From positions 1 through 41,131 of the IMG/VR virus record IMGVR_UViG_3300000117_000063: DNA of 41,131 bases; one strand, 5' to 3'. Numbering within the stretch: position 1 is the stretch's first letter; every line of letters starts with the position of its first letter. Position numbers and translations under genes: made by a program. Positions 1-18,968 of the stretch are shown piece after piece. The notes beneath the pieces were generated by a model. It saw only the letters and a program-made list of their open reading frames with translations, did not search any database and was not told the DNA's origin. This stretch comes from a virus.

Positions 1-3000
1 AGTATGTTTTTAGGACCAGAAAATAGAAAGAGTGCATATTCTCAAGATGGTTCGTATTGGGCTTCTACACTATTCGGGGCTATGGGTGGTGGTGGATTTA
101 CTATGCTTGGGGGTCTTTATAATAGAAAAACTAATAAAGCACGTCAACAAAGACAGATAGAAGAGATTGGTAAAAGACAAGAGTTTATAATAAATTCTCT
201 AAATAAAAGAAATGAAGCACAAGATAAGGGAGATGTTGAAGGTGTTAAGCTACAAAATAGAATGCTTGCAGTAAACTTAGGATTAAACGCATCTCAAGCT
301 GGAACTGTAGATTTACTATTAGAACAAATAAATGATGAAAATTTTGACGCAATTCTTTTAGATAATGGTATTACACAAGAACAGTTAAATACTACTAAAA
401 AAGAAATAGTTGAAACTATTAATCAGGCTGAAAAACGCTATAGAAATTATAGTAATAGAATATTTGGTAATGAGTATGGTGCTGGAGCAGCAAGAGCTGT
501 TACAGAACTAGAAATGGCTATGGATATGTATAGTGAATTAATGCAAGACATAGATAGTAGAATAACAGAATCTCAAGAAAACACTAAAATAGCTGAAGAA
601 AAGTCTCAAATTGGTGTAAACACTAAAAAACGTAGAGAAATACAAACTAATATTGCTAGTTTGAAGCAGACTTTAGAAAAAGTAGAAACTATAATTGAAA
701 ACTTAGAAAACGATAATGCTACTCCTAATATAACCAAAGAAGAAAAAGCTCAAAATGATTCTACTATTGCTAACTTTATGCAGTGGAAAGATAATTATAA
801 TGCAGAACTAAAATTACTAACTCAAGAAGGAGCAGATCTAGAAAAAAATTCTAAAGAAACTTATACTGAAGATAAATTTAAAGAAGAGCAAGAATATTTA
901 AATCAGACTAATAGAAATGATGTAGTACAATTAGCTAATCAAAAACAAATATATAAAGCAAATAGATTAGCAGCATGGAAACAATTAAATGAAATACTAA
1001 GTGGTAATTTTGAATTTACAGTAAAACAAAAGTCAGATAAAATAGAAGATGCATTATTAAGTGATAAAGAGCTTAAGAAAAAGCTTAAGATGGATAGATT
1101 AGATCGTGCAGATATTGAAAGCAGATGGAATTCTATTACAAAAAAGAACGCAAGAGAAACGCAGAATGATGCTAGTATACAGGATTTGATGGATTTACTA
1201 TCTAATCCGGCTACTACACAAGATCAAATAGATATATTTTTAGATGAGTATCAAGATAATAAAGAAGTAAGAGAAGCTTCAAGGCCTCTTATTGCAAGCT
1301 GGAAATCTAGAAAAGATCAGTTAGAATTACAAGCATCTATAGATAACTTAAGAAAAGCAAGTCAAGAAGTTAATGAAGCTGTTAAAGAAGGTAAAGAAAT
1401 AGAGAACTCTGAAAAAGTTATAAACGAAGTTATGCGTTTATTAAATGAAATTTGGGGTGTTGAGGGTATACATAAGGATAGTAAAGGAAATCCTTTATCA
1501 GAAAAACAACAAAGAGCTAAACAACGAGACTATAACTGGGGTAAAAATTTAGGTAAATTTATAGCAAGATATAAATATGGTATACCTGAATCTTTAAACT
1601 GGCAATGGGATAAGTTATTTGATAACTTTATTCCTTCAGTACAAGTAATGTGGAATGATCGTATAGGAGTAATTTATACAGAGAGTGGTACATTATTTTT
1701 TGAAGATGAGAATCAACATAAAACAGCCATAACAAAAGATGTTGACATACTGTTTAATTTAGATATGATTGTATTAAAAAATACAACAACAGTACCTATT
1801 ACTATAGAAGAAGATGGTAGAACTTTTAATATAAAAGGATCTTATTATAGTAACCTTAAAGAAAATCCAACTGATGCTATTAAGTATAATTCAGAGGGTA
1901 TGCCTACAGCTGTTACACTAACTAGATGGTTAGGACATGATATTACAATAACTACTCCAGGTATTGTATTAGACATAGCTAGAGTTATAGAAACTCTAGA
2001 AGCTGTAAAAATATCTAAGTTTGCATCTTTGAATAATGAAGAAAATTCCTTAGATTTGGGAGATACTATTCATTATGCAGTCTATGAAAAAACACCAAAA
2101 GGTTATGACCTAGTGGTGTATAACCAGGAGACAGGTAAAAAAGTTAAAGGCAGTACTAAAGAAGGTAAGTCTTTAAAGCATTTAGCTAATGCGATCTTAA
2201 GTAATAAGATACAAGAAGAAATTAATAAAATAAAAAAAGAATTTAATGAATCTACAACAACTTATAATGTTACTCCCACCGAAACTTCAAAAGAAGCTCT
2301 TAGCGGTACCCCCGGTCAAGCAGCCAGCGTTTCTCAAGAAGTTGAGGGAGTCGAAGACCCCGCAAAAAAGGAAGAAAAAATAACAGCTTCAGCACAATCT
2401 GCTAGCGCAATAGTTAATGTAGATCGTGCAAAAGTAACTGAGAAGGAGAAGAAAGAAATAATAGATGATATAAATAATGATGCTTTACAAGTAGATAAAG
2501 CAAACGCTGAAAAAATTATAGAAGAAGAGGCTAAAAAGAGAGAAGATAATTTAAAAGAAGAAACAAGCGAAAGTATAGACAATTTATTAAAAGACTCTAA
2601 ATCTAATCCTGAAAAAACTGTAGATCTTATAGACTCTTCAGTTAATCAACAAGAGCCTGGGAAGATAAAAGCACCTAGAAGTAAAGCAGTTACTAATCCT
2701 ACAGCTACTAATAAAAATAAAATAGAACTAGATAAGGCGTACCCTCAAGCATGGACTCCTCAATATATAGGTGTTAATCTAGGTACTAAAGCTAGCCCTT
2801 TATGGGTACAAGCCGTGGATATAAACGGTAATAGTGTTCCAATGTTTTCTAGATCTAATGGCGCTGCGTATAGAATTATACCCGAATCTTTTTTATCTCC
2901 AACACAGCTAGATAATCTTGATAAACAATCTCCTGGTTCAGGAACTGTAACATCTGTATGGTACAATGAGCCTAGAAAAAACATGAACAATCAAGTCATG

Positions 3001-6000
3001 AGAGAGGGTAATCGTATTATAGTAAACAAAGAAAAACAAATTAGATATACGGTTGTTAATCCTAAGACTAAAAAAAGAGAGAATGCTGTTATGGTTGTGT
3101 ATCCAGGGTCAACTAATCAAGCAGATATTGTTGATTTTGATGTAGCTAACAATCCAGATACAGGGGTTGGGACAGATGTTATATTAAGAGTAGAACCTAA
3201 TTGGCAATATTATAAAAGTAAAGATTCTAATGATGTAATAATTACTGTAAGATTAGCAGCGAATCCAGAAACTGTTGTTTCGATTATGAGAGGTGGTACA
3301 GCTTCTTTTAAACAAAACTTATTGCTAAGAAAAAATATAGCCGAAGCTTTAAAAGGTAATAGACCTATGGATATTAAAGCTAAAATTGCAGGTAAAACTG
3401 ATGGCTTTGTTACTAATCTAAAAAAACGTGGTATATCTCTTAAGCAATCTATAGAAGTGTTAGGGCCAGATCTTGTTTTAGGGTATGGTATTGATGGAAC
3501 TGTACGTGTACCTAACTCTACTGTATCTGTTGCTAATTCTCAATTTGTAGAAAACGGTACTATATATGCAGCAATAAAATCTGCTAGCGGAAGAGTAATA
3601 CCTATAAGATTAGAAACTTCTAATCTAAATAATACAGCTGCTAATAAAGTAGTAGAGATTATTTTAGATAATAAACTATCAGAAGAAGATAGGAGAGCAC
3701 AGGTAAATAAAATTGTACAAGTTTATGGTAAACTTGAAGAAGATACTCAGCTTGCTATGGATAATTATAGAATTAAATTTCCATATTCAGGAAAAATGAT
3801 TGGTCTACAAATCCATCCGGAAGGAAGCGATCAAATAAGTAACTTTGAAAAATTTATAACGGGAAAGCCTTACAAATATATTTTATATGACCAACAAGGA
3901 TTAATACAATCTTCAGGCCAAGTACAAAGAACATCGGGAGAAACTGTACAAAAAATATTAAGAGATAGTAAAGATTTTTCTTCACAGAATTTAGTTGATA
4001 ATAGAAATGTATTTATTGAGCATTTAAAAACAAAAAAATATAATGTACAGGGACATGAATTAAATGTTAATGAGCCTTATATGAGCCCAATAAATAATCT
4101 AGAGTATAAAAATTATTTAGAGTATTTATCGGATCCTAATATAAGAGTTGTAACTACAGATATTCCGGGAGGAACTTCTGCTAAATTCCATCATTCTATT
4201 ATATATACAGAAGTCGTAGATGATACTACTAAAATTAGTTTACCTTTTCAAAAAGCTGAGCTAACTAAACAAGAAGTAAAAGAATTTACCGAACCTCAAT
4301 TAGATGAAGATGTTATAAGCGCTATAGAGAATGAAGCTACTATGTCTATAGATGATTTAATTGAGAATAACAAGAAAAAACCTAAGACTAAAAATGATAT
4401 AGACAATATAGATGATATTGATTTACCGGGGATTAAGTTACGAGAAGCTGATCTTGTTAGTCCGCCTTCATATAATATGCTTACACAAGAAGAAGTAACA
4501 TGGTTTAAAGAAAAGTTTGGAAAAGAGGGTGTAAATGTATTAGAAAGAGTAAAATGGATAAGAGTATCAAAGGGTAGAAATGCTTGGGGTTTTTATAAAA
4601 ATGGTTTAGTTACATTAGCACGAGAAGGTAAAGAAGGTACAGCATACTGGGAAGCTTTTAGAAGAGTTTTTGATATACATTTATCTGAAGAAGAGAAAAC
4701 AATGGTATTGATGGAAGCTTCAATGACTTATGGAAAATCTATTAGTATTCTAGAGAATAAAAATTTATCTGTAGAGCAGTTAGAAACAGAGTTAGCAAAG
4801 AACTTTATGGAGTTTATGCTCAACGAAAAAGACCCTTCTTTTAAAGGCGCTATAAAAAGATTCTTTAAAGAATTATGGTATGCAATTAAAAACTTTGTAG
4901 GTTTAAATAGCAGTATAGAAAGATTATTTAGAAATATAAGAGATACAAAATATAAAAATTATACACAGGCAGAATTAGCTAAGCTATCTAATGTAGAAAA
5001 TGAACAGCTTAGACAAATGTATAATAAAGAAGGACAGCCTATGCCACAAGAATTTGTTGAAGAGGTTGTAGGTAATATAAACCATGATCTATATTCTGCA
5101 CTGCAAGTTAAAGCAAAAGAAGATAATGTATCTTTTGAATCTTACCTTAAAGACCAAAAACAACTAGATATATTCTATGATACTCTAAGAAAGCAATATA
5201 AAGCTATAGGTAAAAAGATATTAGAAACTCCAGGAATAAGTGAAAGGGTAAAAAGTATAGGAGAAAATTATCTACGAATAACTGATGACTCTTTATGGGG
5301 TATCAGAACAGATGCATTGCATAATCTAACCTCTCCAGGCTTTAAGAAGCTTGCTATACAAAACTTACAACCATTATTTGGTGTAAAGTATACTACATAT
5401 AGAGGACAAGAAATGACAGATGATCTTGATGCTAATGAGGTTAATGATATAGTACAAGAGACTGAACCTCAAGCACAAGAAAGAATACACGGTATAAATT
5501 ATTATTTTAGACCTGTTAAAGATACATTATCTAAAGATGTTAAAATAGGATTAAGTTTTATAGAATCTAAAGAAAAAGGAAAGTTGTTAGGTAAATATAG
5601 ATTTGTACCATTTGATGATGTATATAACTATCTTGCTTTAAACTTATCTAACGCTCCAGAAGGTAGGGTTTTAGAAAAACTAAAAACATTACAGCATGAA
5701 TTAGTACCTCAAGTGTTACAAAAATACACAGAAGCTAGTCCTGCATGGCAAAATAAATTTATTACACATTTTAATAAACAAAACATAGCATTTAAAACAT
5801 TAGTTATTGATAATAATGGAACTGTTAAAGTTATGTATACAAACCGTAATGGGCTAGAAAGACAGATCATTAATGATTGGATGAGTGGTAAGTCTACTTC
5901 ACCTATATTTAAAGAAGTTAACGGAGAAAATGATACAATAGATACTGAAATAGCTAAAGAGTTTCAAGCAATTATTGAAAAAGATTTAGTAGACATACAT

Positions 6001-9000
6001 AATAAATATAGAAATGTAAACAGTATATCAAAACAAACTGAAGGTAAAAAAGAATATATGGTTCCTATGATGAAAGTTTTAAAAAGCATAGGAATAATAC
6101 TACCTCAGAATATGAAGAGTGATTTATTTAGTGATAATTCTATTACAGTAGAAAGTCTTCATAAATATATGTATGGATCTAACTCTTTCCAATATGTATT
6201 TAAAAATTTAGCAAGGGGTATAAGTCCTTATATGGCAAATAATATGGAAATGGGAGCATTAGGAAAGCTTGCCAAGTTTGTTTCTCAATATAAAATAGAC
6301 TCTTACTTATCTTCTTTTATAGGAGGTAATAGAAAAAGTATATATTCTATTAATTTAAATACATATGATTCAGAAAAGACATTAGCTTTAAGATCTGAAG
6401 AAACATACAAACAAGCTATAGGTAAATACTTTAAAGATATATTCTATAAACCAAATTCAAATGTATCGCATGTTATATTAGACATGATATTAAAACATCC
6501 TGATGTAAGAAATAACTTTCAGTTAAGTACATTTGATGTTATAAAAGAAAAAGGAACTTTTGGTAGAGCTACTGCTTATGATCGAATGACTGAAAACTTA
6601 TCTGCTTTATCCCGATTCTCTATGTTTAATAACAGTGGTAATAGATTTGCAGAATTTAGTACAGGGACTAAGTCTGATAAAGGTCAGTTTAAGTTTTTAA
6701 CATTACCAAAAATACATCCAAAGAATAAAAGCTTTGGAATGTGGAAATCTACTAAACTAGGTGTAGAAGGATTTGTAGAAACTGCTGTTGAACTTATGCG
6801 CCCTTTAGCATTAGGTGAATATGCTCGTATATCAAAAATAGAACGACAGTTATTTGATATAGATATGGATTTAAAACACCAAGTAAAAAATCTACATTAT
6901 AGAAATGAGCCTGGGGATAAAGATGGTAATGGATTAAAGTTTATGTTCTTCAGAGATCTTAATAACTCTGAACTATTTAATGCAGAAACAAATAGATTAG
7001 AAGCTATATCTACTACTAACAACTCAGATCTAGAAGTGTATAACACTTTAAGTAGTAAGTTAGACGGCTACTTAAGAAGTTATGTTTCTAAACAAATAAG
7101 AAAAACAATAGATGCTTTTGTTGAAGCTAAAGCGATAGTTAAAGTTGGTAAAGAAATACACAATATTAATCTACCAATGCAGGCTATTTCAGGTAAAAGT
7201 GTTGGGAAAGATATTACACTAGCAATAGTTGAGTTTGCTGTAAACGATATAGTAATGAAACCTTATATAAATACTATATTTGGTCCAGACCTAGCATTCT
7301 ATAAAACAGATAGACAAGGTAATCCTATGATCGATGCTGGTAAAAGACAGTATCAGTCCGTAACTCCTAAAATGAATCTTACTTATAATGAAGAGCATGA
7401 TTACGGAGCTAAACCTAAATTTACACACGCAGTAGTACGGGATATAATAAAAAGAAGTCCAGAAACTGTAGAAAGGTTTGAAAAAATATTAACAAAAGCT
7501 GGGGTAAATCCTAAAGAAGCTAAAATAATAGCTTCATCTTATGAAGAAGTTCTAAAAACAGATGCACAAGGTTATACAACATTAGAATTCCATAAAAGAC
7601 AAATGGAGTCTCAAGGTAAGTGGTCTAAAGAACATGAAACTGCATATGAAACGTATTGGAAAAAAGGGCTAATGGGAGGAAAGGCTGAACAAGGACTTTT
7701 ATTAGACCCTTTAAAAACATATTTCTTTGGAGAAGTCTTAGAAAATGATGGACATAATAATGAAACTATAGTATTTAAACAAATTAAACACTCTACAATA
7801 CCATTAATGAGAGGTTATACCGAGATTTTTGCAGAGAATGATATAACTACATTAGATGACTTAAGACAACGTATGGAGGCTACAGGTAAGTACAAAGGTA
7901 TGCAACCTATAGATATGATTAATTTTGAAAGTGGAGTTAAGGTAGGTATATCAGGTATATCTAATTTACAAGATCTGGATAATGTAAATGTAGAAGTGTT
8001 AGATACTAAATACTTAGGTTCGCCGCAAATTATTACAACTAAAGCTAAAGACCCACTATTTGGATCGCAGTTTGCTAAATTATTACCTTCTAATATAGAA
8101 AATGATGCTAGCTATGTGTTACCTAATGGGGATAGATTATTAGGAGAAGAAGTTAAAACATTATATAATGATTTATGGTATGAAAAAATAGAGAGATCTT
8201 CTAATAAACTTTCACGTAAGATAGGTTATAAAGCTTTTATGGATATTTTAGCTGATAGAAATAATTTATCTAATAAAGAATTTGGTATTGCACAATTAAA
8301 ATTCTTAAAAAAAGTTAAGAATGAAGTATACCAAATGTTACAAGAAAGAGAATTACCAGATAATTACTTTTTAGCTTTAGATATAGAACAATTAATAGAT
8401 GATGTTGATGCTTATGGATACGTAACGCCTATGGCATTCCCTACTTTTTCTAAAAGATTTGAAAATATATTACTATCATTATTTAAGAATAATATATTGA
8501 AACAAAAAGCCAAAGGAATGTCTGCAGTACAAGTAGCGGATTTTGGATGGTCACTTACAAATGAGCTTCAGATAAAAGCTAATAGTAATGGAGGTGTGTA
8601 TGCAGAAGTTGCATTACCATATGATTTAGTACACAAATTAGGATTAAGAGTAGGAGATAATTTATCAGAAGTAGATCAAACTTTACTAGAATTAGTAGGA
8701 TATCGTATACCAACACAAGGTAAAAACTCCATGCTATCTTTAAAAGTAGTTAAGATTTTACCACAAAATATGGGATCTATTATACAATTACCTGCAGAAA
8801 TAACGACTATAATGGGGTCAGATTTTGATATAGATAAGATGTATATCATGTTTCCAGAACTAACAAAAGATAAGAAAAGAGAAGCTGCATTTAAAATAGG
8901 GCAGTATAGAACTAAAAAATCTTTTGAAGGATTATCAGATCAAGCTGTTAATCAAGCTTTATTTGATATATCTCATAGTATATTATCTTCTAAACATTCT

Positions 9001-12000
9001 GTAAAAGAAATACTAACACCTTTAGATTCTAATACATATAAAGAGGCTATAAAAGATTATAGAGAAGCAGGTATTACACAAGATATATCAGACTTCGACG
9101 TATTTACACCGGCTGCAGATATGTATTTAGAAAAAATAAATAAAGATGCTGCTATGTTGATTGGTTTATTTTCAATGAATTCTACATCTCATGCTTTAGC
9201 ACAGGATATGGAGGTTACATTAAAAGATGGTGCACAAGTTTATTTTAATTCTAAAAAAGGACAAGAGCATACAAGCTTAAGTAATATTTATGATTTTGAA
9301 GGTAACTATATTTCTGATCATATAAAAGATGACCAAAATGAATCTATTGATAATGCTAAAAATCAAAGAATAGGCCCCGCAGGTGTTACAGTATATAACC
9401 ACGGCGTAAAGATGTTATTAAATAGAGTTGGGGTTCCTGGGAGAGCTTCTCTAGATTTTATAAATCAGCCTATGATTAAACAGTATCAAAAAAGTAAAGC
9501 TACAAATACGGACAGTGTATCTGACATCAAGTTAGCAGAAAGAGTAGCGGAAGAATGGGGGGTTAAACAAGAATTTTTAGAAGCTAAAAAACTATTTGGT
9601 GAAGATAGATTCTTTACACCAAGCGCTGCATCATTAAAGAAATCCTTAAACCATACTAAAGGAGGAGAAAGGGCTAATAAAGTACAACAAGCTCAATTAT
9701 TAGCTGACTTTTTTAATTATTTAGATATTGCTAGGGATATTTCTAAGCTTAATATGCTTTTAAACCCTGAAGGTTTGAAGAATTTTAGTAGGTTAAGTTA
9801 TTTAGAAGCTTTTAAAAATGCTGAAGGCCATCTAAAAAGTACATCATCTTATATAAATATAGGTAAAATGCCAAAAAGAACAGAAGCGTTTATAAAATTT
9901 GGTATAGATGAGGCTATCAATGTTACTAGTTACTTTATACCTTTTAATAAAGAAGGGTTTTTAGAATTAAAGAGAAGTATAGCTAAATATACAGGACAAC
10001 AAGATGGAGTACTATCACAAGAGCTAATTGAAACTATAAATAGTTTGGCTTTATACTATGTATTTACTCAACCTGAATCACCTTTAGGTAATTTATTTTA
10101 TACAGAGGGGAAATCAGACATGTCTTTAGTTAAAAAGAGATTGTTTACATTATCAGAATCAACAGTATCTAGATTTTTAAATCTTAGATCTAGAAAAAAC
10201 ATGTTCAATGATAAGTTTTTTGGAATGTTATTTGCGCATAGAGAAAATACAGGTAAAAATAGATTTATAAAATTACTAGCTTTTAATAATGCTAGTAAGT
10301 TAGATGCATCTCAAAAATCTGCAATAACAGATAGATGGGAGCAATTACTAGATCCTAATGTAACTAAGGATGTAGAGGTAAGAAGGATGGCAGAAGCATT
10401 AGTTCTTTATTCTATTATTACTTCCGGTTTTATATCAACAGGGCCTAATACATTTGTAGATCTAATACCTAACTCATACTGGTCTAATAAATCAGAAACT
10501 AGAGATTCATTAAGTAATTTCTTTAGAAAAGAAGTACGAACAATGGAATATTCTAATTACTTTGACGACAATGCAGCTCGACAGATAATCAGAAATGCTT
10601 ATAAAGACCCTGGATTACTACTAACAGTAGATAAAACAGCTTTAGTTCATAATAATATGGTAAAAGACTTAGGGTTAAGTAAAAACCATTATTTTATTCA
10701 CCAAGAAGCTTCTAGTGATATCTTACTTAAAGATAGCCCTGGAACAAAAGCATATGTAGAATATTTTAAAACATATGAAGGTAAATGGAGATTATTTCAG
10801 TTACATAGTGTACGAGAAGCAGGAGCTATTTACCAAGAAATACAACCATTAGGAGAACGTTATAAATTTGTTGAGATGACTAGTAAGGATGCGCTAATTG
10901 AAAGTATACATCCAATGAATACTACTAAACATAAACAAAATATATCACAACAACTAGAGAATTTACCTCCTAATAGTACTGAAGCTACAGAATCTATAGA
11001 CGACTTATTAGGCATGCCACAACTTGCAGCTGAAAAGGTACTAGAAACAAAAATACAAGATCTAGAAAATAGATTATTGACATGGTTAAAAAAAGAATTT
11101 AATATTAATCAAAAAACTTATAATGTATTAAAAACTAAGACAGGAAAAGATGCTTTAGGTGTAGCAGATATAATGCATAAAGTAATACATCTATCAAACA
11201 GAAGAGATAGATATACTGTACCAGAAGAAACAGCTCACTTTTTTATAGAAATGTTAAAAGATAAGGCTATTGTTAAGAGATTAATGGATTTAGCCGCTAA
11301 AACTAATTTACACGGTGAAGTATTAAGAGATTATGCAGAAGTCTATAACAATCCGGAAGAGTTTAAAAAAGAAACTGCAGGTAAAATACTAGGAAAATAC
11401 ATTGTTTCTGAATATTATCAAGGAAAAGGCTTTAGTATTGGAACAGAAAATCAATTTGTTAAAGAATATAGAGGATTTTTAGGACTATTACAGAAGTTAT
11501 GGGACAGAATTAGATCTATTTTTGTAGGAGAGTCTGCAAATACTGAGTTAAATAGACATATTCGAGATGTTTTTGGCCAAAAAGCTAGACAAGTTTTAAC
11601 TGGAAGCTCATTAGGGTTAGATGTTAATTTATTACGAACTAATACTATACAAAAATACTATAGTATAGGGGGTATAATGGATGGTGCAGGAAAATTAGGA
11701 GAGGGTGTATTAAATAAAGTAGGAAAAAGTTTAAGTGTTTTTGATTTTACTTCTAAACAACTAAAAGAATTAGGAGATAAAGGTAAAGCACTGTTACAAA
11801 GAAGAGCATCATGGAATCAATCTGACTATATAACAGAGTTATTAGCAGATAGTAATAGAATAACTGAACCAACAGGAGAAAATAATTTCTATACTAAAGA
11901 TGGAGTACAGTTAACAAGAGTAACTGGTGTACAGGATTACTTTACCGATGCATTTGCGGAAGAAGAGATGGCATCTAAAGTAGCTAAAGCAAATAGAAAT

Positions 12001-15000
12001 AAAGGAGATGTATTTAATTCTGCAGAAAGAGTATTAAATCTATGGAGTTTCTTACAAGAGGGTGGCACAGAAATCCATAAAGTAATGGAAGCTATTATAA
12101 ACGGTAAAAATAATGAACAAATTATGGATTCTGTTAATATAGATCCAAAAAGTAAAAAAGCCATTAAATCTTCTTTATCATTATTAAGAACTTGGGTTCA
12201 AGATAAAATGAATAAAGGTAGTAAGCTATATGCAGAAGTTAAAATAGCTGATATGAATAATCTGTTAGCAGGTACAATAGATGTTATAGAGCAGACAAGC
12301 AGTGGTAGAATATATTTACACGACTTTAAAAGTAAAGTACTTGGAAAGCTGGTGGAGTTAGAAAAAAGATTACCTAATTTTAAATACGCTTTATCAGGTG
12401 TACCTAATACTATATTAAATCAATATAGGTTACAACTTTCGCTATATAAATATATACTAGAGAAAAAAGGTATAAGGGTAGACGGTATAAGAGTACAACC
12501 ATTAGAGGTAGGTGTTAATATAACCCCAGAAACAGGTAATATAAATTATACATCTATTTCATTTCCTAGCGCAACATCACCGGTATTAAATAAATTAAAC
12601 AATTTAAAACCTATTGATAATACTATAGTATCGAATGTTCTTAAAAAACTTAATCCTGAATCTACAGGAGTAGCAGAAGAGTTAAAAGAAAAAGATGCTA
12701 CAGTTAGAGTATTGCAACAAGCTAAAAATGTTATAAGGAAAAAAATAGATAAATATAAAAAGTCTGGAAATCCTAATTATCTAACAGCTATGCAAGATCT
12801 ATCTAAGCAACTAGAAGAAGTAAGCGAAAAAGAAGGTATTGTATTATTTGTAAAAAGAGCACTACAAGAAATAAATGATGCGCATAAAAGATTATTACAA
12901 CTACAAAAAGATGATGCAGTTACAGCTAGAAATCTAGCAGAAATAAGAAACTATGTATCAGCATATGAAATATTAGATGAGATGACATTGTTAGCCCCAT
13001 CATTAGGTAAAACAGGTTATGAAAATTTAATTAATACATATGTAGCACCCGCAGTACTGAAAAGACAGCAGGTAGAAGAGTTATATAAAGCATTAGGTAG
13101 GCCTATTATTGCAGACTTTTTAACGAAGTATAGCACTAAACCAGGGATGACTAAAGTAAAGATGGAAGCAGAGCTTATTAAAGCTAGTCGAGATATTAAT
13201 TATTTAGCTAGATGGTTAAATGCATTAGCAGACTCTTCGATGACAGAGTTAGCAATGATTGATAAGCATGTTGCTATAAAAAGAAATATAGTCCAGGAAG
13301 CTAAATACAATCTAGAGTATGGCCAAGGAAAAGAAAAAGGTATGCTAGACATGTTAAAAACATTCGAAGAGCATAGAGCCCAGGAGGGTGCTAGTGTTAC
13401 TAATTATGTTGAGCTCTTTGAACCGATACTAGAAATGCATGAAGGAAAACCTACAGGACATATAGTAGGGCCACAATCATATGCATTTAGACAAAAGAAA
13501 TATGATTTTATACAAGCAAAGAAAGCAGCCGGAGAAGCTATTACAAGCAGACTTTGGAATGAATTCTTTGAGAATAATGAGTTTGTAGAGGATCCAAAGT
13601 ATGCAGCATTAATGAAGTTACCTGAATCACATCCTACAAGAGCTTTTTACGATTACTTTATTGAGCAGTATAAATATGCACAGAGTATATTACCATCTTT
13701 TGCTAGAAGAGGTCTTATGTTACCTGGGTTAAGAAAGACTCCACAAGAGAAGTTTATGGAGACTGCAGGTTTTGTTGGATTAAAAGGAGGATGGAACGCA
13801 ATAAAAGAAGCAGCGCTACAAAAGTTTACTATACTAGAAGATGAAACAGAATATAAAGAAAATGTAGACGAAAAAGGAGATGCTATGCATTATGTACCTA
13901 TACATTATAGTGAAAAGATCGGGACAGAAGAAGGTATGTTAAATCCTGAAGATGTTTCTTATGATCTATCAAGCGCATTATCTATGTATTATACTATGGC
14001 TGTAAACAATCAGCAAATGAATGAAATAATAGCAGAGTTAGAACTAACAAAAGAATTACTAAGAACAAGAAAAGTTAGTAAACTTAAAGCTGGTATGCCT
14101 GTTATTGATAATGTTACAGATGCACAGGTTACAACAGAAGGTGTTCAATCTTTAGCTTATAATAGATTAGTCGATTATTTAAATATGGTTGTTTACGGAG
14201 AAAGAAAGAAGAAAAGTTCAGATGTAATGACTATAGCAGGAAAGAAAGTTACCATGGATAAGATAATGGATGGTTTCTTGTCGTACAATAGTTTAAGAGT
14301 ATTGGCGTTAAATCCACATGCTGGTTATGTAAACGTAGCATTTGGTAATTTAATGAATACTATAGAATCTTTTGCGGGACAATATTTTGGTAAAAAGAAT
14401 TTTATTAAAGCTAAAACATTCTATTGGGGTAATTTATCAGGTATATTAAAAGATACTGTAGGTAGAGTTCCTACTTCTAAAGTAGGCCTTATGAATGAGT
14501 ATTACAATGTATTACAACATTTTGATGAGTTTGGTAATAGAATTAAACATAAATCATTAGCTATGCGTGGTATGCATACAGGTGCATTCTTCTTTATGAT
14601 GACAATGGGGGAACATATGTTACAGAGTCAGTTATTTATGTCGATGGCTTTAGAAAAAACATTTAAACTAGCTAATGGTAAAACAATAAATCTGTGGGAT
14701 GCTCATAAAGTAGTTAATGACAAATTAATACTTAATGAAGAAGTTGCTGAGCAGTTTACTGAAACTGATAGAGCAATATTTAAAGAAAGAGTACAAGGAG
14801 TCTATCAGAGATTACATGGTATATATAACCAAAAAGATCGAAATGCTATACAACAATATGCAGCAGGTAGGTGGGTAATGCAATTACGTAAGTGGATGCC
14901 ATCAGGATTTGCAAGAAGATTTGAAGGTATGGAAAAACTATGGTATGATAAAAAGTCTGAATTTAAAGGCCCTGAATGGAATGAGAGATTAAAATCATAT

Positions 15001-15537
15001 GTAGAGGGTAATTATATTACTACATTACGTTTTATAAATCAACTAAAGTTTGATATAGCTAAGCTTAAAATGTATACTATAAAAGAAAAGTGGAATGAGT
15101 TAGATACATGGCAAAAACAAAATGTAAAACGTACTATAGGTGAAGTAGCAGCCTTCTTTACTTTATTAGCGCTTTCAGGTCTTATAAGAAGCGGAGATGA
15201 AGATGAAAAGGGATATGTATATTACCAATCTTTATACACAGTGCATAGAATGAAACAAGAGCTATTATTCTTCTCCTGGTTACCAGAAACGTTTAATGTA
15301 TTAAAGTCTCCTGCAGCTAGTATAACATCTTTAGAAGTATTAGTAAATCTAGTAGGTCAGTTACTATCTGATACAGGATCTATTATGATGGGACAGGATA
15401 TAGAAAGATATAAAAGAAAGACCGGTATGTGGGATAAAGGGGATCCTAAAATATATTCAAAGATATATAAAACGTTCCCATTAACACAGATAGGCGCACA
15501 AGCAAAAGATAAGTTAAGCTGGTTCCACCTAAATTAA
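1..15537 (+). CDS. Giant crAss-like virion RNA polymerase polyprotein (probably 5'-partial)
   Basis: Single frame of at least 5,177 residues (numbered from the ATG at 4). The frame is open at base 1 and no leader is visible, so the true start may lie upstream. Residues 20-37 are a Gly-rich hydrophobic segment, followed by a long charged, coiled-coil-like region to about 500. Residues 2900-2950 carry RIPTQG, then a conserved stretch ending in D2940-F-D2942-I-D2944, matching the double-psi beta-barrel and metal-binding loop of RNA polymerase beta' as in the virion RNA polymerase of Cellulophaga phage phi14:2. Two zincin-like modules have lost their metal ligands (W1549-E-A-F-R1553 and E3741-E-T-A-H3745). 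Residues about 4020-4150 form a complete RecB/Cas4-like PD-(D/E)XK nuclease (H4025, E4078, D4093, D4107-F-K4109, Q4144/Y4148). A hydrophobic helix lies near 5046-5062. Known for the family: the polymerase is packaged, enters the cell and transcribes early genes. The nuclease role is inference. Confidence 0.9.
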   Translation, partial: SMFLGPENRKSAYSQDGSYWASTLFGAMGGGGFTMLGGLYNRKTNKARQQRQIEEIGKRQEFIINSLNKRNEAQDKGDVEGVKLQNRMLAVNLGLNASQAGTVDLLLEQINDENFDAILLDNGITQEQLNTTKKEIVETINQAEKRYRNYSNRIFGNEYGAGAARAVTELEMAMDMYSELMQDIDSRITESQENTKIAEEKSQIGVNTKKRREIQTNIASLKQTLEKVETIIENLENDNATPNITKEEKAQNDSTIANFMQWKDNYNAELKLLTQEGADLEKNSKETYTEDKFKEEQEYLNQTNRNDVVQLANQKQIYKANRLAAWKQLNEILSGNFEFTVKQKSDKIEDALLSDKELKKKLKMDRLDRADIESRWNSITKKNARETQNDASIQDLMDLLSNPATTQDQIDIFLDEYQDNKEVREASRPLIASWKSRKDQLELQASIDNLRKASQEVNEAVKEGKEIENSEKVINEVMRLLNEIWGVEGIHKDSKGNPLSEKQQRAKQRDYNWGKNLGKFIARYKYGIPESLNWQWDKLFDNFIPSVQVMWNDRIGVIYTESGTLFFEDENQHKTAITKDVDILFNLDMIVLKNTTTVPITIEEDGRTFNIKGSYYSNLKENPTDAIKYNSEGMPTAVTLTRWLGHDITITTPGIVLDIARVIETLEAVKISKFASLNNEENSLDLGDTIHYAVYEKTPKGYDLVVYNQETGKKVKGSTKEGKSLKHLANAILSNKIQEEINKIKKEFNESTTTYNVTPTETSKEALSGTPGQAASVSQEVEGVEDPAKKEEKITASAQSASAIVNVDRAKVTEKEKKEIIDDINNDALQVDKANAEKIIEEEAKKREDNLKEETSESIDNLLKDSKSNPEKTVDLIDSSVNQQEPGKIKAPRSKAVTNPTATNKNKIELDKAYPQAWTPQYIGVNLGTKASPLWVQAVDINGNSVPMFSRSNGAAYRIIPESFLSPTQLDNLDKQSPGSGTVTSVWYNEPRKNMNNQVMREGNRIIVNKEKQIRYTVVNPKTKKRENAVMVVYPGSTNQADIVDFDVANNPDTGVGTDVILRVEPNWQYYKSKDSNDVIITVRLAANPETVVSIMRGGTASFKQNLLLRKNIAEALKGNRPMDIKAKIAGKTDGFVTNLKKRGISLKQSIEVLGPDLVLGYGIDGTVRVPNSTVSVANSQFVENGTIYAAIKSASGRVIPIRLETSNLNNTAANKVVEIILDNKLSEEDRRAQVNKIVQVYGKLEEDTQLAMDNYRIKFPYSGKMIGLQIHPEGSDQISNFEKFITGKPYKYILYDQQGLIQSSGQVQRTSGETVQKILRDSKDFSSQNLVDNRNVFIEHLKTKKYNVQGHELNVNEPYMSPINNLEYKNYLEYLSDPNIRVVTTDIPGGTSAKFHHSIIYTEVVDDTTKISLPFQKAELTKQEVKEFTEPQLDEDVISAIENEATMSIDDLIENNKKKPKTKNDIDNIDDIDLPGIKLREADLVSPPSYNMLTQEEVTWFKEKFGKEGVNVLERVKWIRVSKGRNAWGFYKNGLVTLAREGKEGTAYWEAFRRVFDIHLSEEEKTMVLMEASMTYGKSISILENKNLSVEQLETELAKNFMEFMLNEKDPSFKGAIKRFFKELWYAIKNFVGLNSSIERLFRNIRDTKYKNYTQAELAKLSNVENEQLRQMYNKEGQPMPQEFVEEVVGNINHDLYSALQVKAKEDNVSFESYLKDQKQLDIFYDTLRKQYKAIGKKILETPGISERVKSIGENYLRITDDSLWGIRTDALHNLTSPGFKKLAIQNLQPLFGVKYTTYRGQEMTDDLDANEVNDIVQETEPQAQERIHGINYYFRPVKDTLSKDVKIGLSFIESKEKGKLLGKYRFVPFDDVYNYLALNLSNAPEGRVLEKLKTLQHELVPQVLQKYTEASPAWQNKFITHFNKQNIAFKTLVIDNNGTVKVMYTNRNGLERQIINDWMSGKSTSPIFKEVNGENDTIDTEIAKEFQAIIEKDLVDIHNKYRNVNSISKQTEGKKEYMVPMMKVLKSIGIILPQNMKSDLFSDNSITVESLHKYMYGSNSFQYVFKNLARGISPYMANNMEMGALGKLAKFVSQYKIDSYLSSFIGGNRKSIYSINLNTYDSEKTLALRSEETYKQAIGKYFKDIFYKPNSNVSHVILDMILKHPDVRNNFQLSTFDVIKEKGTFGRATAYDRMTENLSALSRFSMFNNSGNRFAEFSTGTKSDKGQFKFLTLPKIHPKNKSFGMWKSTKLGVEGFVETAVELMRPLALGEYARISKIERQLFDIDMDLKHQVKNLHYRNEPGDKDGNGLKFMFFRDLNNSELFNAETNRLEAISTTNNSDLEVYNTLSSKLDGYLRSYVSKQIRKTIDAFVEAKAIVKVGKEIHNINLPMQAISGKSVGKDITLAIVEFAVNDIVMKPYINTIFGPDLAFYKTDRQGNPMIDAGKRQYQSVTPKMNLTYNEEHDYGAKPKFTHAVVRDIIKRSPETVERFEKILTKAGVNPKEAKIIASSYEEVLKTDAQGYTTLEFHKRQMESQGKWSKEHETAYETYWKKGLMGGKAEQGLLLDPLKTYFFGEVLENDGHNNETIVFKQIKHSTIPLMRGYTEIFAENDITTLDDLRQRMEATGKYKGMQPIDMINFESGVKVGISGISNLQDLDNVNVEVLDTKYLGSPQIITTKAKDPLFGSQFAKLLPSNIENDASYVLPNGDRLLGEEVKTLYNDLWYEKIERSSNKLSRKIGYKAFMDILADRNNLSNKEFGIAQLKFLKKVKNEVYQMLQERELPDNYFLALDIEQLIDDVDAYGYVTPMAFPTFSKRFENILLSLFKNNILKQKAKGMSAVQVADFGWSLTNELQIKANSNGGVYAEVALPYDLVHKLGLRVGDNLSEVDQTLLELVGYRIPTQGKNSMLSLKVVKILPQNMGSIIQLPAEITTIMGSDFDIDKMYIMFPELTKDKKREAAFKIGQYRTKKSFEGLSDQAVNQALFDISHSILSSKHSVKEILTPLDSNTYKEAIKDYREAGITQDISDFDVFTPAADMYLEKINKDAAMLIGLFSMNSTSHALAQDMEVTLKDGAQVYFNSKKGQEHTSLSNIYDFEGNYISDHIKDDQNESIDNAKNQRIGPAGVTVYNHGVKMLLNRVGVPGRASLDFINQPMIKQYQKSKATNTDSVSDIKLAERVAEEWGVKQEFLEAKKLFGEDRFFTPSAASLKKSLNHTKGGERANKVQQAQLLADFFNYLDIARDISKLNMLLNPEGLKNFSRLSYLEAFKNAEGHLKSTSSYINIGKMPKRTEAFIKFGIDEAINVTSYFIPFNKEGFLELKRSIAKYTGQQDGVLSQELIETINSLALYYVFTQPESPLGNLFYTEGKSDMSLVKKRLFTLSESTVSRFLNLRSRKNMFNDKFFGMLFAHRENTGKNRFIKLLAFNNASKLDASQKSAITDRWEQLLDPNVTKDVEVRRMAEALVLYSIITSGFISTGPNTFVDLIPNSYWSNKSETRDSLSNFFRKEVRTMEYSNYFDDNAARQIIRNAYKDPGLLLTVDKTALVHNNMVKDLGLSKNHYFIHQEASSDILLKDSPGTKAYVEYFKTYEGKWRLFQLHSVREAGAIYQEIQPLGERYKFVEMTSKDALIESIHPMNTTKHKQNISQQLENLPPNSTEATESIDDLLGMPQLAAEKVLETKIQDLENRLLTWLKKEFNINQKTYNVLKTKTGKDALGVADIMHKVIHLSNRRDRYTVPEETAHFFIEMLKDKAIVKRLMDLAAKTNLHGEVLRDYAEVYNNPEEFKKETAGKILGKYIVSEYYQGKGFSIGTENQFVKEYRGFLGLLQKLWDRIRSIFVGESANTELNRHIRDVFGQKARQVLTGSSLGLDVNLLRTNTIQKYYSIGGIMDGAGKLGEGVLNKVGKSLSVFDFTSKQLKELGDKGKALLQRRASWNQSDYITELLADSNRITEPTGENNFYTKDGVQLTRVTGVQDYFTDAFAEEEMASKVAKANRNKGDVFNSAERVLNLWSFLQEGGTEIHKVMEAIINGKNNEQIMDSVNIDPKSKKAIKSSLSLLRTWVQDKMNKGSKLYAEVKIADMNNLLAGTIDVIEQTSSGRIYLHDFKSKVLGKLVELEKRLPNFKYALSGVPNTILNQYRLQLSLYKYILEKKGIRVDGIRVQPLEVGVNITPETGNINYTSISFPSATSPVLNKLNNLKPIDNTIVSNVLKKLNPESTGVAEELKEKDATVRVLQQAKNVIRKKIDKYKKSGNPNYLTAMQDLSKQLEEVSEKEGIVLFVKRALQEINDAHKRLLQLQKDDAVTARNLAEIRNYVSAYEILDEMTLLAPSLGKTGYENLINTYVAPAVLKRQQVEELYKALGRPIIADFLTKYSTKPGMTKVKMEAELIKASRDINYLARWLNALADSSMTELAMIDKHVAIKRNIVQEAKYNLEYGQGKEKGMLDMLKTFEEHRAQEGASVTNYVELFEPILEMHEGKPTGHIVGPQSYAFRQKKYDFIQAKKAAGEAITSRLWNEFFENNEFVEDPKYAALMKLPESHPTRAFYDYFIEQYKYAQSILPSFARRGLMLPGLRKTPQEKFMETAGFVGLKGGWNAIKEAALQKFTILEDETEYKENVDEKGDAMHYVPIHYSEKIGTEEGMLNPEDVSYDLSSALSMYYTMAVNNQQMNEIIAELELTKELLRTRKVSKLKAGMPVIDNVTDAQVTTEGVQSLAYNRLVDYLNMVVYGERKKKSSDVMTIAGKKVTMDKIMDGFLSYNSLRVLALNPHAGYVNVAFGNLMNTIESFAGQYFGKKNFIKAKTFYWGNLSGILKDTVGRVPTSKVGLMNEYYNVLQHFDEFGNRIKHKSLAMRGMHTGAFFFMMTMGEHMLQSQLFMSMALEKTFKLANGKTINLWDAHKVVNDKLILNEEVAEQFTETDRAIFKERVQGVYQRLHGIYNQKDRNAIQQYAAGRWVMQLRKWMPSGFARRFEGMEKLWYDKKSEFKGPEWNERLKSYVEGNYITTLRFINQLKFDIAKLKMYTIKEKWNELDTWQKQNVKRTIGEVAAFFTLLALSGLIRSGDEDEKGYVYYQSLYTVHRMKQELLFFSWLPETFNVLKSPAASITSLEVLVNLVGQLLSDTGSIMMGQDIERYKRKTGMWDKGDPKIYSKIYKTFPLTQIGAQAKDKLSWFHLN

Positions 15538-15894: not shown

Positions 15895-16459
15895 CTATAC
15901 CCATCAATTTCTTAAATTCATTTCTATCAAAGAACTCATCACCTCTACTTACAATAGGCCAAACTTCATCATCTGCTGATAAATTTACACCAAGTCTATC
16001 TTCCCAGTATATTTTTAACGAGCTATCCTTATCCAGGATCAAGGGCATTGGGCTATTAGGAGCGCGATGTCTCATAATACGAATTTTAGCGGGATCGGAA
16101 AGTTGTGAATATTTACCATCTAAAAACTTATCATAGTCTGGTTTAAAAGAAGGAGATATATTAAAGACAAACATTATATATTTACCACCCCATAAATTAT
16201 ATGAGGTTTTAAAATATTTATCTTCTTCTATCTTCTTTTCTAAACGCATAAAATGACGATTACCGTAATATTTCATTAACACGAAAACATCAGGAGATTC
16301 TAGATCCCAATCTAACATATCCTTATCACCAAGATAAGCATTTACTAAATAGGGAGCTAGATCTACCTTATCATATCCAGTCAGTGGAAATATAAAATCT
16401 ACAGTTTTAGTTGGTTTAACTTTATCAGCAATTCTCCTTAATTCTTGAGATATTTTCAT
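15872..16459 (-). CDS. Conserved phage protein of unknown function
   Basis: A 195-residue soluble protein, last gene of the minus-strand replication block. I recognise no domain. It is rich in aromatic residues and Asp, has no signal peptide or membrane segment, and contains short motifs such as DWDLESPDVF and WGGKYIMFVF that look like beta strands of a compact fold. Its start overlaps the end of the PD-(D/E)XK nuclease gene by 35 bases, so the two are almost certainly co-translated. That makes a role beside nuclease and resolvase in DNA processing plausible, but the sequence itself does not show it. Confidence 0.75.
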   Translation of the reverse strand: MKISQELRRIADKVKPTKTVDFIFPLTGYDKVDLAPYLVNAYLGDKDMLDWDLESPDVFVLMKYYGNRHFMRLEKKIEEDKYFKTSYNLWGGKYIMFVFNISPSFKPDYDKFLDGKYSQLSDPAKIRIMRHRAPNSPMPLILDKDSSLKIYWEDRLGVNLSADDEVWPIVSRGDEFFDRNEFKKLMGIVDIPGLY

Positions 16460-17426
16460 CCGATAACTTTAAGTTAATAATTCCATCATTGTCATAATAC
16501 TCCTTTGGAAAATCCCAAAGGTTTTTGCTTACATGCCATTTATATCTTTCGACTAAATCATCAAATTCATCCATACCAATGGATAAATCTGTTGCATTTG
16601 GCTTGAAAGCAACACATTCATGTAGACCTGTAGTTTGAACTACAACAATATAAGAATTAATATCATAGTCTTGAATATCTATGCCAAGAGTCTCTAAATA
16701 ACTATTTACTGCTAGTTTGTAAATAGCCATTTGTCTATAATATCCGTAAGTAAAATATGACCTACTAAAATTATAAACCGACTTTGAAGTAGTTTTCAAG
16801 TCTATGATATCAATTTTTTTATTCTCTACATCAAGTATTAAATTATCAATAATGGATTTTACATTAACATCTTTGTAAATCCAAGAAATTTCAAACTCAG
16901 GTTTTCCATCTTTGTCCTCATCAGGAAACAATAGCGGATGTGTCATCTGATGTTCAATAAGTTTGTCGTAACAATTTTTTACAACTTCCATATCGTCCTG
17001 AGATAACACAGTTTTACCCGAATTTTCTTTTAGAAATTTGAAATAAGCTTGATTCTCGTCAGAATTAAACTTCTTTAACACGGTTTCTAATGCCGTTTTA
17101 AATCCTGCTTTATCATAACACAATTCATGTAGTGTTTGATAACCGTCTATTTTTAATTGTTTTGGCATATGTTCATTAATCATAACAGCTTCCGCTTCTA
17201 CATATGATTCAATAAATGTGCCCATCATACCTCCTACAGGATTAGAATGAGATACTACATATCTATTATTAAACTCTGCATGTTCTAAAACATAACAATG
17301 AATTGCAGACCCTAAATCAAAAGCCTTACTATCTTTATGCAATTCTCTAGCCTTATATTTCTGGAAATACCTAGGGCTAACACTTAATGCACTCAACGAG
17401 GAGTGACTAACATGATCTTCATTCAT
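16425..17426 (-). CDS. PD-(D/E)XK exonuclease, RecE/RecB-like
   Basis: A 333-residue predicted nuclease. The N-terminus HSSLSALSVSPRYF and GSAIHCYVLE (H43) match the opening of RecE-type exonucleases and the PD-(D/E)XK domain often annotated as exodeoxyribonuclease VIII. The core follows with E179, D194 in SIIDNLIL, and D209-L-K211 in IIDLKTT, then Q232-x3-Y236 in YRQMAIYKL, the RecB-family motif that helps hold DNA. All expected metal-binding and catalytic residues are present. Family members degrade double-stranded DNA from ends to make single strands for recombination. The gene overlaps the RusA-like gene by 8 bases and the downstream unknown gene by 35, forming a recombination cassette. 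Whether it is a processive exonuclease or a structure-specific nuclease cannot be told from sequence. Confidence 0.85.
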   Translation of the reverse strand: MNEDHVSHSSLSALSVSPRYFQKYKARELHKDSKAFDLGSAIHCYVLEHAEFNNRYVVSHSNPVGGMMGTFIESYVEAEAVMINEHMPKQLKIDGYQTLHELCYDKAGFKTALETVLKKFNSDENQAYFKFLKENSGKTVLSQDDMEVVKNCYDKLIEHQMTHPLLFPDEDKDGKPEFEISWIYKDVNVKSIIDNLILDVENKKIDIIDLKTTSKSVYNFSRSYFTYGYYRQMAIYKLAVNSYLETLGIDIQDYDINSYIVVVQTTGLHECVAFKPNATDLSIGMDEFDDLVERYKWHVSKNLWDFPKEYYDNDGIINLKLSDENISRIKENC

Positions 17427-17957: not shown

Positions 17958-18968
17958 TTATTTAGAAATTTCAGCAGCTAAACGATCATTTTGAGCCAAT
18001 TCGGCTTCAAGATCATTTATTTGCTTTCTTTTAGCTTCCTCATATGCTTTCAAATCGTTTTTCATAGATTGAGCATTGAATTCACTATAATCAGATTCTA
18101 GATATACATTCTCGTTCTCACCATTACTAATAGCAATAGGAAAATATTCACAGCATCTCATTTTAGTGTTATTGTAATCTGACGGCACTGCCACCACATT
18201 ACGAGGACTTACTAATACTTCTAATATTACACCATCATCATATCCAAAATCATGAACATATTCCATAGACCCCACGTGAAGGCCTGAAGAGCATGTTTGA
18301 TTTGGATTAGAGTCACAATCCTCTCTTGGCATTGTAATAGGCTGACCTACTTTAATTACCATTCCGTGACTGCCACTGTGATAAGGTGCGAAAGTTAATG
18401 ATTGAGTATATTTCTTTTCTCTTTCGCCAGTGTCTTCATTGTACTCGAACTGAACAACTTCTTCCCCAGTCGTTTTATCGTACTTAGATTTAACTTTACA
18501 GGCTTTGTAAGCAAGAAAATACCCTTTGTCTGTTATTGGATGGCCATTGTGCTCTAGAAAGCTATATAATTGCTTTCTAACAGCTTTATCCGGATTTAAT
18601 AACAGATGCTTCCAGAAATTAACTAAACCGTCTAAAGGAATTCCATCCTCCATCCACTTCATTAATTTCTTTGCTAAAAAATTAGGTATAGGATCAGTAG
18701 TACCTTTAAGATACATTTTCCTACCACCATCAAATTCAAATCTCCCATCAGTTTGATTTTGAATTCGGTGTCCAGGAGTTAGCAGCTCCTGAACTTTGCC
18801 CATTATGGCATTACGTTCATCATTATCTCTAGATTTATTATAATTTTCAGCTAATTTAATAACTTTATCAGCTTCAGAGAAGCTTCTAGAAATACTTTTT
18901 GGTAGTCCATCGATAATGACCTGAACGTGGTCTTTATCAACTTTACAGACTAAATAACTATTATTCAT
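17958..18968 (-). CDS. rIIB: rIIB-like protein
   Basis: A 336-residue homologue of T4 rIIB. Diagnostic stretches are LVNFWKHLLLNPDKAVRKQL, FLEHNGHPITDKGYFLAYKA, CSSGLHVGSMEYVHDFG, VVAVPSDYNNTKMRCCEY and VGQPITMPRED, in the order seen in rIIB proteins. In T4, rIIA and rIIB together protect the infected cell from lambda Rex exclusion and affect membrane and lysis physiology; their biochemical role is still unclear. The start overlaps the rIIA stop by 4 bases (ATGA), so the pair is translationally coupled as in other phages. A strong hairpin follows the gene. The N-terminal about 65 residues are diverged and the C-terminus is a short charged helix. Confidence 0.88.
   Translation of the reverse strand: MNNSYLVCKVDKDHVQVIIDGLPKSISRSFSEADKVIKLAENYNKSRDNDERNAIMGKVQELLTPGHRIQNQTDGRFEFDGGRKMYLKGTTDPIPNFLAKKLMKWMEDGIPLDGLVNFWKHLLLNPDKAVRKQLYSFLEHNGHPITDKGYFLAYKACKVKSKYDKTTGEEVVQFEYNEDTGEREKKYTQSLTFAPYHSGSHGMVIKVGQPITMPREDCDSNPNQTCSSGLHVGSMEYVHDFGYDDGVILEVLVSPRNVVAVPSDYNNTKMRCCEYFPIAISNGENENVYLESDYSEFNAQSMKNDLKAYEEAKRKQINDLEAELAQNDRLAAEISK

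Follow-up and report, generated by a model that had tools for sequence, protein, structure and literature searches.

The window, that is, the whole stretch of DNA analyzed here, is the linear virus record IMGVR_UViG_3300000117_000063 (positions 1 to 41,131; 41131 bases). In the transcription/virion-cargo block, a giant polyprotein ORF (1..15537, plus strand) encodes 5178 aa within the window, with the 5' end missing; its frame stays open over nt 1-15537, and the translation contains no cysteine. Complete polyproteins of relatives are 5520-5714 aa long, which places a few hundred N-terminal residues outside the window; the absolute numbering used here will shift accordingly. The neighboring genes examined were a helicase, rIIA/rIIB, an exonuclease, and a DNA polymerase, and the rIIB and rIIA homologues lie in the replication block at 17958-21427 on the minus strand. 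Four relatives of 86-89 kb with the same polyprotein encode a crAss001-like terminase (TerL), portal, and MCP, genes that fall outside the window, and we therefore regard the phage as crAss-like. In the human gut, crAss-like phages are the most common of all phages.

Along the plus strand, the polyprotein could be divided into several regions. The RNA polymerase region (aa 1832-3627, 5494..10881) is homologous to the virion RNA polymerases phi14:2 gp66 and crAss001 gp50, both by hhalign (E=1.4e-66) and by tblastn. It carries the catalytic signature GSDFDIDKMY (aa 2939-2948, nt 8815-8844), in which DFDID at aa 2941-2945 corresponds to the DxDxD that characterizes crassvirus RNAPs homologous to phi14:2 gp66. 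A zincin-like segment follows (aa 3690-3860, 11068..11580), with EETAH at nt 11224-11238 where MT835645 has HEYAH and cr1_1 has HELVH. A second zincin-like segment with an altered metal motif, TAYWEAFRR, was seen at nt 4639-4680 (plus strand), and we presume that this motif may be derived from HExxH. The changes in both zincin-like motifs appear to be old because they are uniform among the clade relatives checked. The C-terminal region (aa 4230-5175, 12688..15525) is homologous to the virion, RNAP-associated proteins phi14:2 gp65 and crAss001 gp49 (hhalign E=9.3e-75).

Between the first of these zincin-like segments and the gp65-like part lies a PD-(D/E)XK nuclease domain of the RecB/Cas4/MGME1 branch, recognized by profiles, alignments, a structural model, and fold searches. 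The original prediction had placed a RecB/Cas4-like nuclease at nt 12010-12480; the domain is indeed found there, although its extent is a little longer, about nt 11836-12525 (aa 3946-4175, plus strand). The active-site residues that had been named are all present, in order, in the open ORF. The earlier numbers take the ATG at nt 4 as their start; here the count begins at nt 1, which adds one to each. Thus, the first motif has H4026 (earlier H4025) in GTEIHKVME at 12076..12078, strand beta1 has E4079 (E4078) at 12235..12237, strand beta2 has D4094 (D4093) in LAGTIDVI at 12280..12282, strand beta3 has D4108-F-K4110 (D4107/K4109) in HDFKSK at 12322..12330, and the helix after the core has Q4145-x3-Y4149 (Q4144/Y4148) at 12433..12447, all on the plus strand. 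This is the motif order of the RecB branch, H - E - GxxD - DxK - QxxxY. The ordered motif together with its flanking glycine signatures occurred once in the polyprotein, and none of 2000 shuffled versions contained it, while the bare motif residues without the glycine signatures were found in 255 of the 2000 shuffles (13%). Motif spacing alone is weak evidence for a nuclease, and with the bare pattern appearing in 13% of shuffles, the claim must rest on homologues and fold.

Homologues from other crAss-like phages carry a counterpart domain in the same place of the protein. In a 237-residue alignment with cr1_1, cr4_1, and MT835645 (24-26% identity), 25 columns were invariant and all 7 motif residues were among them, for which the probability by chance is about 6e-8. 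All 7 were also kept in 5 relatives of the same clade. The proteins of cr4_1 and MT835645 can be read only with TAG as an amino acid, and the conserved motif glutamine of cr4_1 is itself encoded by a TAG codon. Compared with the nearest relative, dN/dS was 0.053 in the nuclease domain and 0.060 in the RNAP core (0.166 and 0.117, respectively, compared with the next relative); by these ratios, purifying selection on the domain is strong. Profile searches matched the nuclease segment to the exonuclease family phrog_298 (E=4e-10) and to two further exonuclease families. PDDEXK_1 (PF12705) matched weakly in all 7 clade members (best 0.002), with a match of 3.2e-4 inside one relative's polyprotein, and a Pfam scan of the polyprotein segments gave nothing above the cut-off. 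A single scan of viral contigs with the cr1_1 domain gave no match. Searches of PDB sequences, with the single sequence or with profiles, returned no nuclease, and relatives of solved structure came only from the fold search.

The original prediction had proposed a fold prediction and a comparison with Cas4/AddB nucleases as its check. AlphaFold2, given seven related sequences, produced a model of the domain with a pLDDT of 79 and a pTM of 0.78; this value was reached by 2 of the 5 models, and the alignment is to be regarded as thin because the other three stayed near a pLDDT of 50. In the model, strands 146-155, 160-169, and 175-184 bear E150, D165, and D179/K181, respectively. E150 and D165 are placed symmetrically around one turn, and D165 and D179 around the other, in exact hairpin register, and the E, D, and D should therefore lie side by side in the predicted structure. 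As far as strand register shows, the aspartates and lysine that had been expected to come together (D4093, D4107, and K4109 in the earlier numbering) do so in the model. Secondary structure, register, and fold matches all point to an alpha-beta-beta-beta-alpha-beta PD-(D/E)XK core with adjacent acidic residues. The best solved match was human MGME1 (Z 9.2 over 193 residues, rmsd 4.5), followed by AdnA (8.7), the Cas4-family protein ACE1 (8.2), Cas4 (8.1), RecE (7.9), AddA (7.8), RecB (7.6), Dna2 (7.5), and Exo5 (7.4). These Z values are moderate, yet the top rows all belong to one enzyme branch, the RecB-type nucleases. In a fold search of viral models, the second best match was "Exonuclease [uncultured phage cr4_1]", with several large crAss-like proteins after it. 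Given the homologues and the predicted fold, we rejected the view that the motif residues are there by mere chance. Homologue conservation, profiles, and the model thus confirmed, at the level of sequence and predicted structure, a RecB-branch nuclease domain with a full, intact-looking active site inside the polyprotein that carries the virion RNA polymerase.

The likeness to Cas4 and AddB that had been proposed for the domain held for the fold but not for the iron-sulfur cluster of those families, which is held by four cysteines. The domain has none, nor has the rest of the 5178 aa, so an iron-sulfur Cas4 or AddB nuclease was rejected, and the domain is not strictly of the Cas4/AddB kind. 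Its solved relatives (MGME1, AdnA, RecB/AddA, RecE, Cas4, Exo5, and Dna2) resemble it in fold and motif order (Z 7-9) but share only 11-20% identity with it, and they belong to different proteins and pathways; the Fe-S cysteines are a further difference.

Yutin et al. (2021, PMC7886860) reported PDDEXK domains from some crAss-like phages, within large proteins associated with transcription. The kind has thus been known since 2021, and the polyprotein domain adds another member. In those phages, the nuclease protein has a gene of its own, whereas in the window the nuclease and the polymerase are joined in one polyprotein of >5100 aa, and the zincin-like motif ahead of the nuclease reads EExxH in the polyprotein, unlike theirs. 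The cr4_1 protein YP_010112557.1 (annotated VOG1134 exonuclease) belongs to the same superfamily and is encoded in the same gene block, directly behind the RNA polymerase; the cr4_1 and cr1_1 proteins have both the nuclease and the C-terminal region in common with the polyprotein. As far as the literature consulted shows, what appears to be new here is the conservation and fold test, the occurrence of the domain, with altered motifs, at a second location in gp47, and a contrast in cysteine content.

The second location emerged when other cargo proteins were compared. No counterpart of the nuclease stretch was found in phi14:2 gp65 or crAss001 gp49, and the stretch can therefore be regarded as an optional insertion. 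A related domain was present in gp47 or its counterpart in crAss001, cr128_1, cr85_1, Bajarodcaudo virus 1, and Dulem virus 41; these sequences suggest that the cargo nuclease domain can occupy either of two cargo proteins. The gp47-type domains retain AGEVDI/AGEADI and DVK/DIK, as well as QLxxY except in Dulem virus 41, while the His is replaced (by Asp in 4) and so is the Glu (by Asn or Asp in 4). In crAss001 gp47, a virion protein annotated as a putative RNA-polymerase subunit, the domain spans aa about 1748-1850 and reads AGEVDI, DVK, and QLxxY; it sits in a different cargo protein from that of the polyprotein domain, with His changed to Asp and Glu to Asn. In the cargo blocks of phi14:2, cr50_1, cr109_1, and cr114_1, the domain was not found with these profiles, and it is thus not essential to all crassvirus infection cycles. 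A related domain was also seen in a 1529-aa protein of MT835470 (8323-12909, plus strand); its DxK aspartate is apparently replaced (LYLFKSS), and it is possibly an inactivated version.

These altered motifs, with 2 of the 7 motif residues replaced in crAss001-type gp47 and the DxK aspartate apparently lost in MT835470, indicate that the fold can persist without a full site. They are what would be expected if the domain were a catalytically idle DNA-binding or structural module that tethers the polymerase to DNA. We consider this improbable for the polyprotein domain, as the window clade, cr1_1, cr4_1, and MT835645 all keep the 7 residues in an alignment with just 25 invariant columns.

The same genome encodes a separate PD-(D/E)XK exonuclease of the exonuclease VIII type in its replication block (16425..17426, minus strand; phrog_412 E=2e-40; PF12705; 5 cysteines). 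The hhalign probability of the polyprotein domain was 98.7 with the Suoliviridae cargo group, 72.9 with gp47, and 0.4 with the exonuclease VIII group, and by this profile comparison we rejected an origin as a copy of the enzyme in the replication block. By these comparisons, the cargo domains are nearer to one another than to the replication-block exonuclease of the same phages.

The original prediction also held that the nuclease enters the cell together with the phage DNA. This was partly borne out, by homologues found in virions and by cysteine content. crAss001 gp47, gp49, and gp50 have been detected in purified virions (PMC6235969; PMC10172136), and the records of phi14:2 gp65-gp67 bear mass-spectrometry notes. 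Cysteine is lacking not only from the polyprotein but also from its clade relatives, compared to 1.46% in the window's replication genes; at that rate, 0 cysteines in 5178 aa would be expected with a chance of about 1e-33. Cysteine made up 0.04-0.12% of crAss001 gp47/49/50 and phi14:2 gp65-67 (gp47 of crAss001 has 1 Cys in 2341 aa), and crassvirus virion RNAP-block proteins generally contained 0.04-0.2%, compared with 1-2% in replication genes. Among 17 cargo nuclease domains, 0 of 4135 residues were cysteine, compared to 36 of 3017 in nine crAss-like replication-block nucleases (Fisher P 3e-14, a value that overstates independence because the sequences are related). The known ejected proteins N4 vRNAP, T7 gp15, and T7 gp16 also have 0 cysteines. 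The N4 virion RNA polymerase is likewise a giant, cysteine-free polymerase that is ejected with DNA, but it has a T7-like polymerase fold (PMC2784036) and is unrelated to the crAss-like polyprotein. Polymerases of the N4 type have been proposed to be cysteine-free for passage through tail and periplasm (PMC2784036; PMC3715699). Missing cysteine may thus be a signature of ejected proteins, or it may reflect storage rather than ejection. Together with the homology to virion proteins detected by mass spectrometry, the absence of cysteine supports indirectly that the polyprotein nuclease enters the cell with the DNA, and counting cysteines is an inexpensive way to test from sequence which crassvirus proteins are ejected.

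Delivery of a DNA nuclease into the cell along with the genome is known from few dsDNA phages, and a nuclease lying beside its own packaged genome raises the question of what prevents that genome from being cut and which DNA is cut after entry. Because the active site is conserved, single substitutions can address this question. The original prediction had named host DNA and phage ends as possible targets. A search of the literature found no experimental paper on a crassvirus cargo nuclease and no activity, substrate, or virion data for this phage or for homologues of its domain. Among the RecB-type nucleases that head the fold matches (MGME1, AdnA, RecE, AddA, and RecB), many take DNA ends, flaps, or single strands as their substrates. 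We tentatively favor, at somewhat less than an even chance, a domain that processes ends or flaps of phage DNA after entry, a choice of substrate drawn solely from fold analogy. The polypeptide would be packaged, then threaded through the tail along with the genome, and in the cell it would refold as a metal-dependent nuclease for free DNA ends or single strands. Its most likely task would be to process ends or flaps of phage DNA, either incoming or freshly replicated; it might, for instance, resect terminal repeats to allow pairing and circularization, beside the polymerase reading the same DNA. Packaged double-stranded DNA would also survive storage next to an enzyme that depends on ends or single strands. 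Terminal repeats are present in crAss001, and terminally redundant genomes have been predicted for crAss002 (PMC10136315); these would need recombination to circularize. End or flap processing is thus preferred because many of the closest folds act in this way, because a stored nuclease must spare intact dsDNA, and because terminal repeats need circularizing. Counting against it, several crassvirus cargo blocks lacked the domain by these profiles, the virion-detected relative crAss001 gp47 has lost the His and Glu, and the second PD-(D/E)XK exonuclease of the same genome could do the end processing.

The intact active site, together with a cargo position from which the enzyme would act first, could also suit a nuclease that degrades host, plasmid, or competing phage DNA, or defense nucleic acids, soon after entry, with nucleotide supply or removal of resistance as the benefit. 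Weak Cas4 and DruK profile matches, to families that share the fold, point the same way. However, the closest DNA at hand would be the linear genome of the phage itself, no specificity partner was found, and RecB-type nucleases usually require ends or single strands, neither of which an intact circular chromosome has; we therefore consider both the attack and its supposed benefit unlikely. Less likely still is a late function, in which the domain is made with the structural genes, trims concatemers or terminase ends before or during packaging, and ends up in the virion only through its fusion to cargo. The terminase possesses a nuclease of its own, and the cysteine-free domain points to threading through the tail. 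Late transcription of the cargo genes (PMC10136315), and the occurrence of the domain in either of two cargo proteins, are nevertheless compatible with such a role.

Returning to DNA processing after entry, we consider it possible, though doubtful, that crassviruses own a dedicated lineage of ejected nucleases, namely, a cysteine-free PD-(D/E)XK module carried in the gp47 or the gp49/gp65 protein (the latter fused to the polymerase in the window), delivered with the virion RNA polymerase, and acting on DNA in the first minutes of infection. Fusion beside an RNA polymerase would also fit an enzyme that cuts RNA, trimming phage transcripts or degrading host mRNA as does herpesvirus SOX, which has the same fold and whose complex with RNA was among the fold matches (Z 6.2). 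This seems very unlikely, as DNA nucleases (Z 7-9) ranked above SOX and all family annotations are DNA exonucleases. Finally, a 75-aa antisense ORF at nt 11937-12164 overlaps the nuclease domain and is presumably due to chance.
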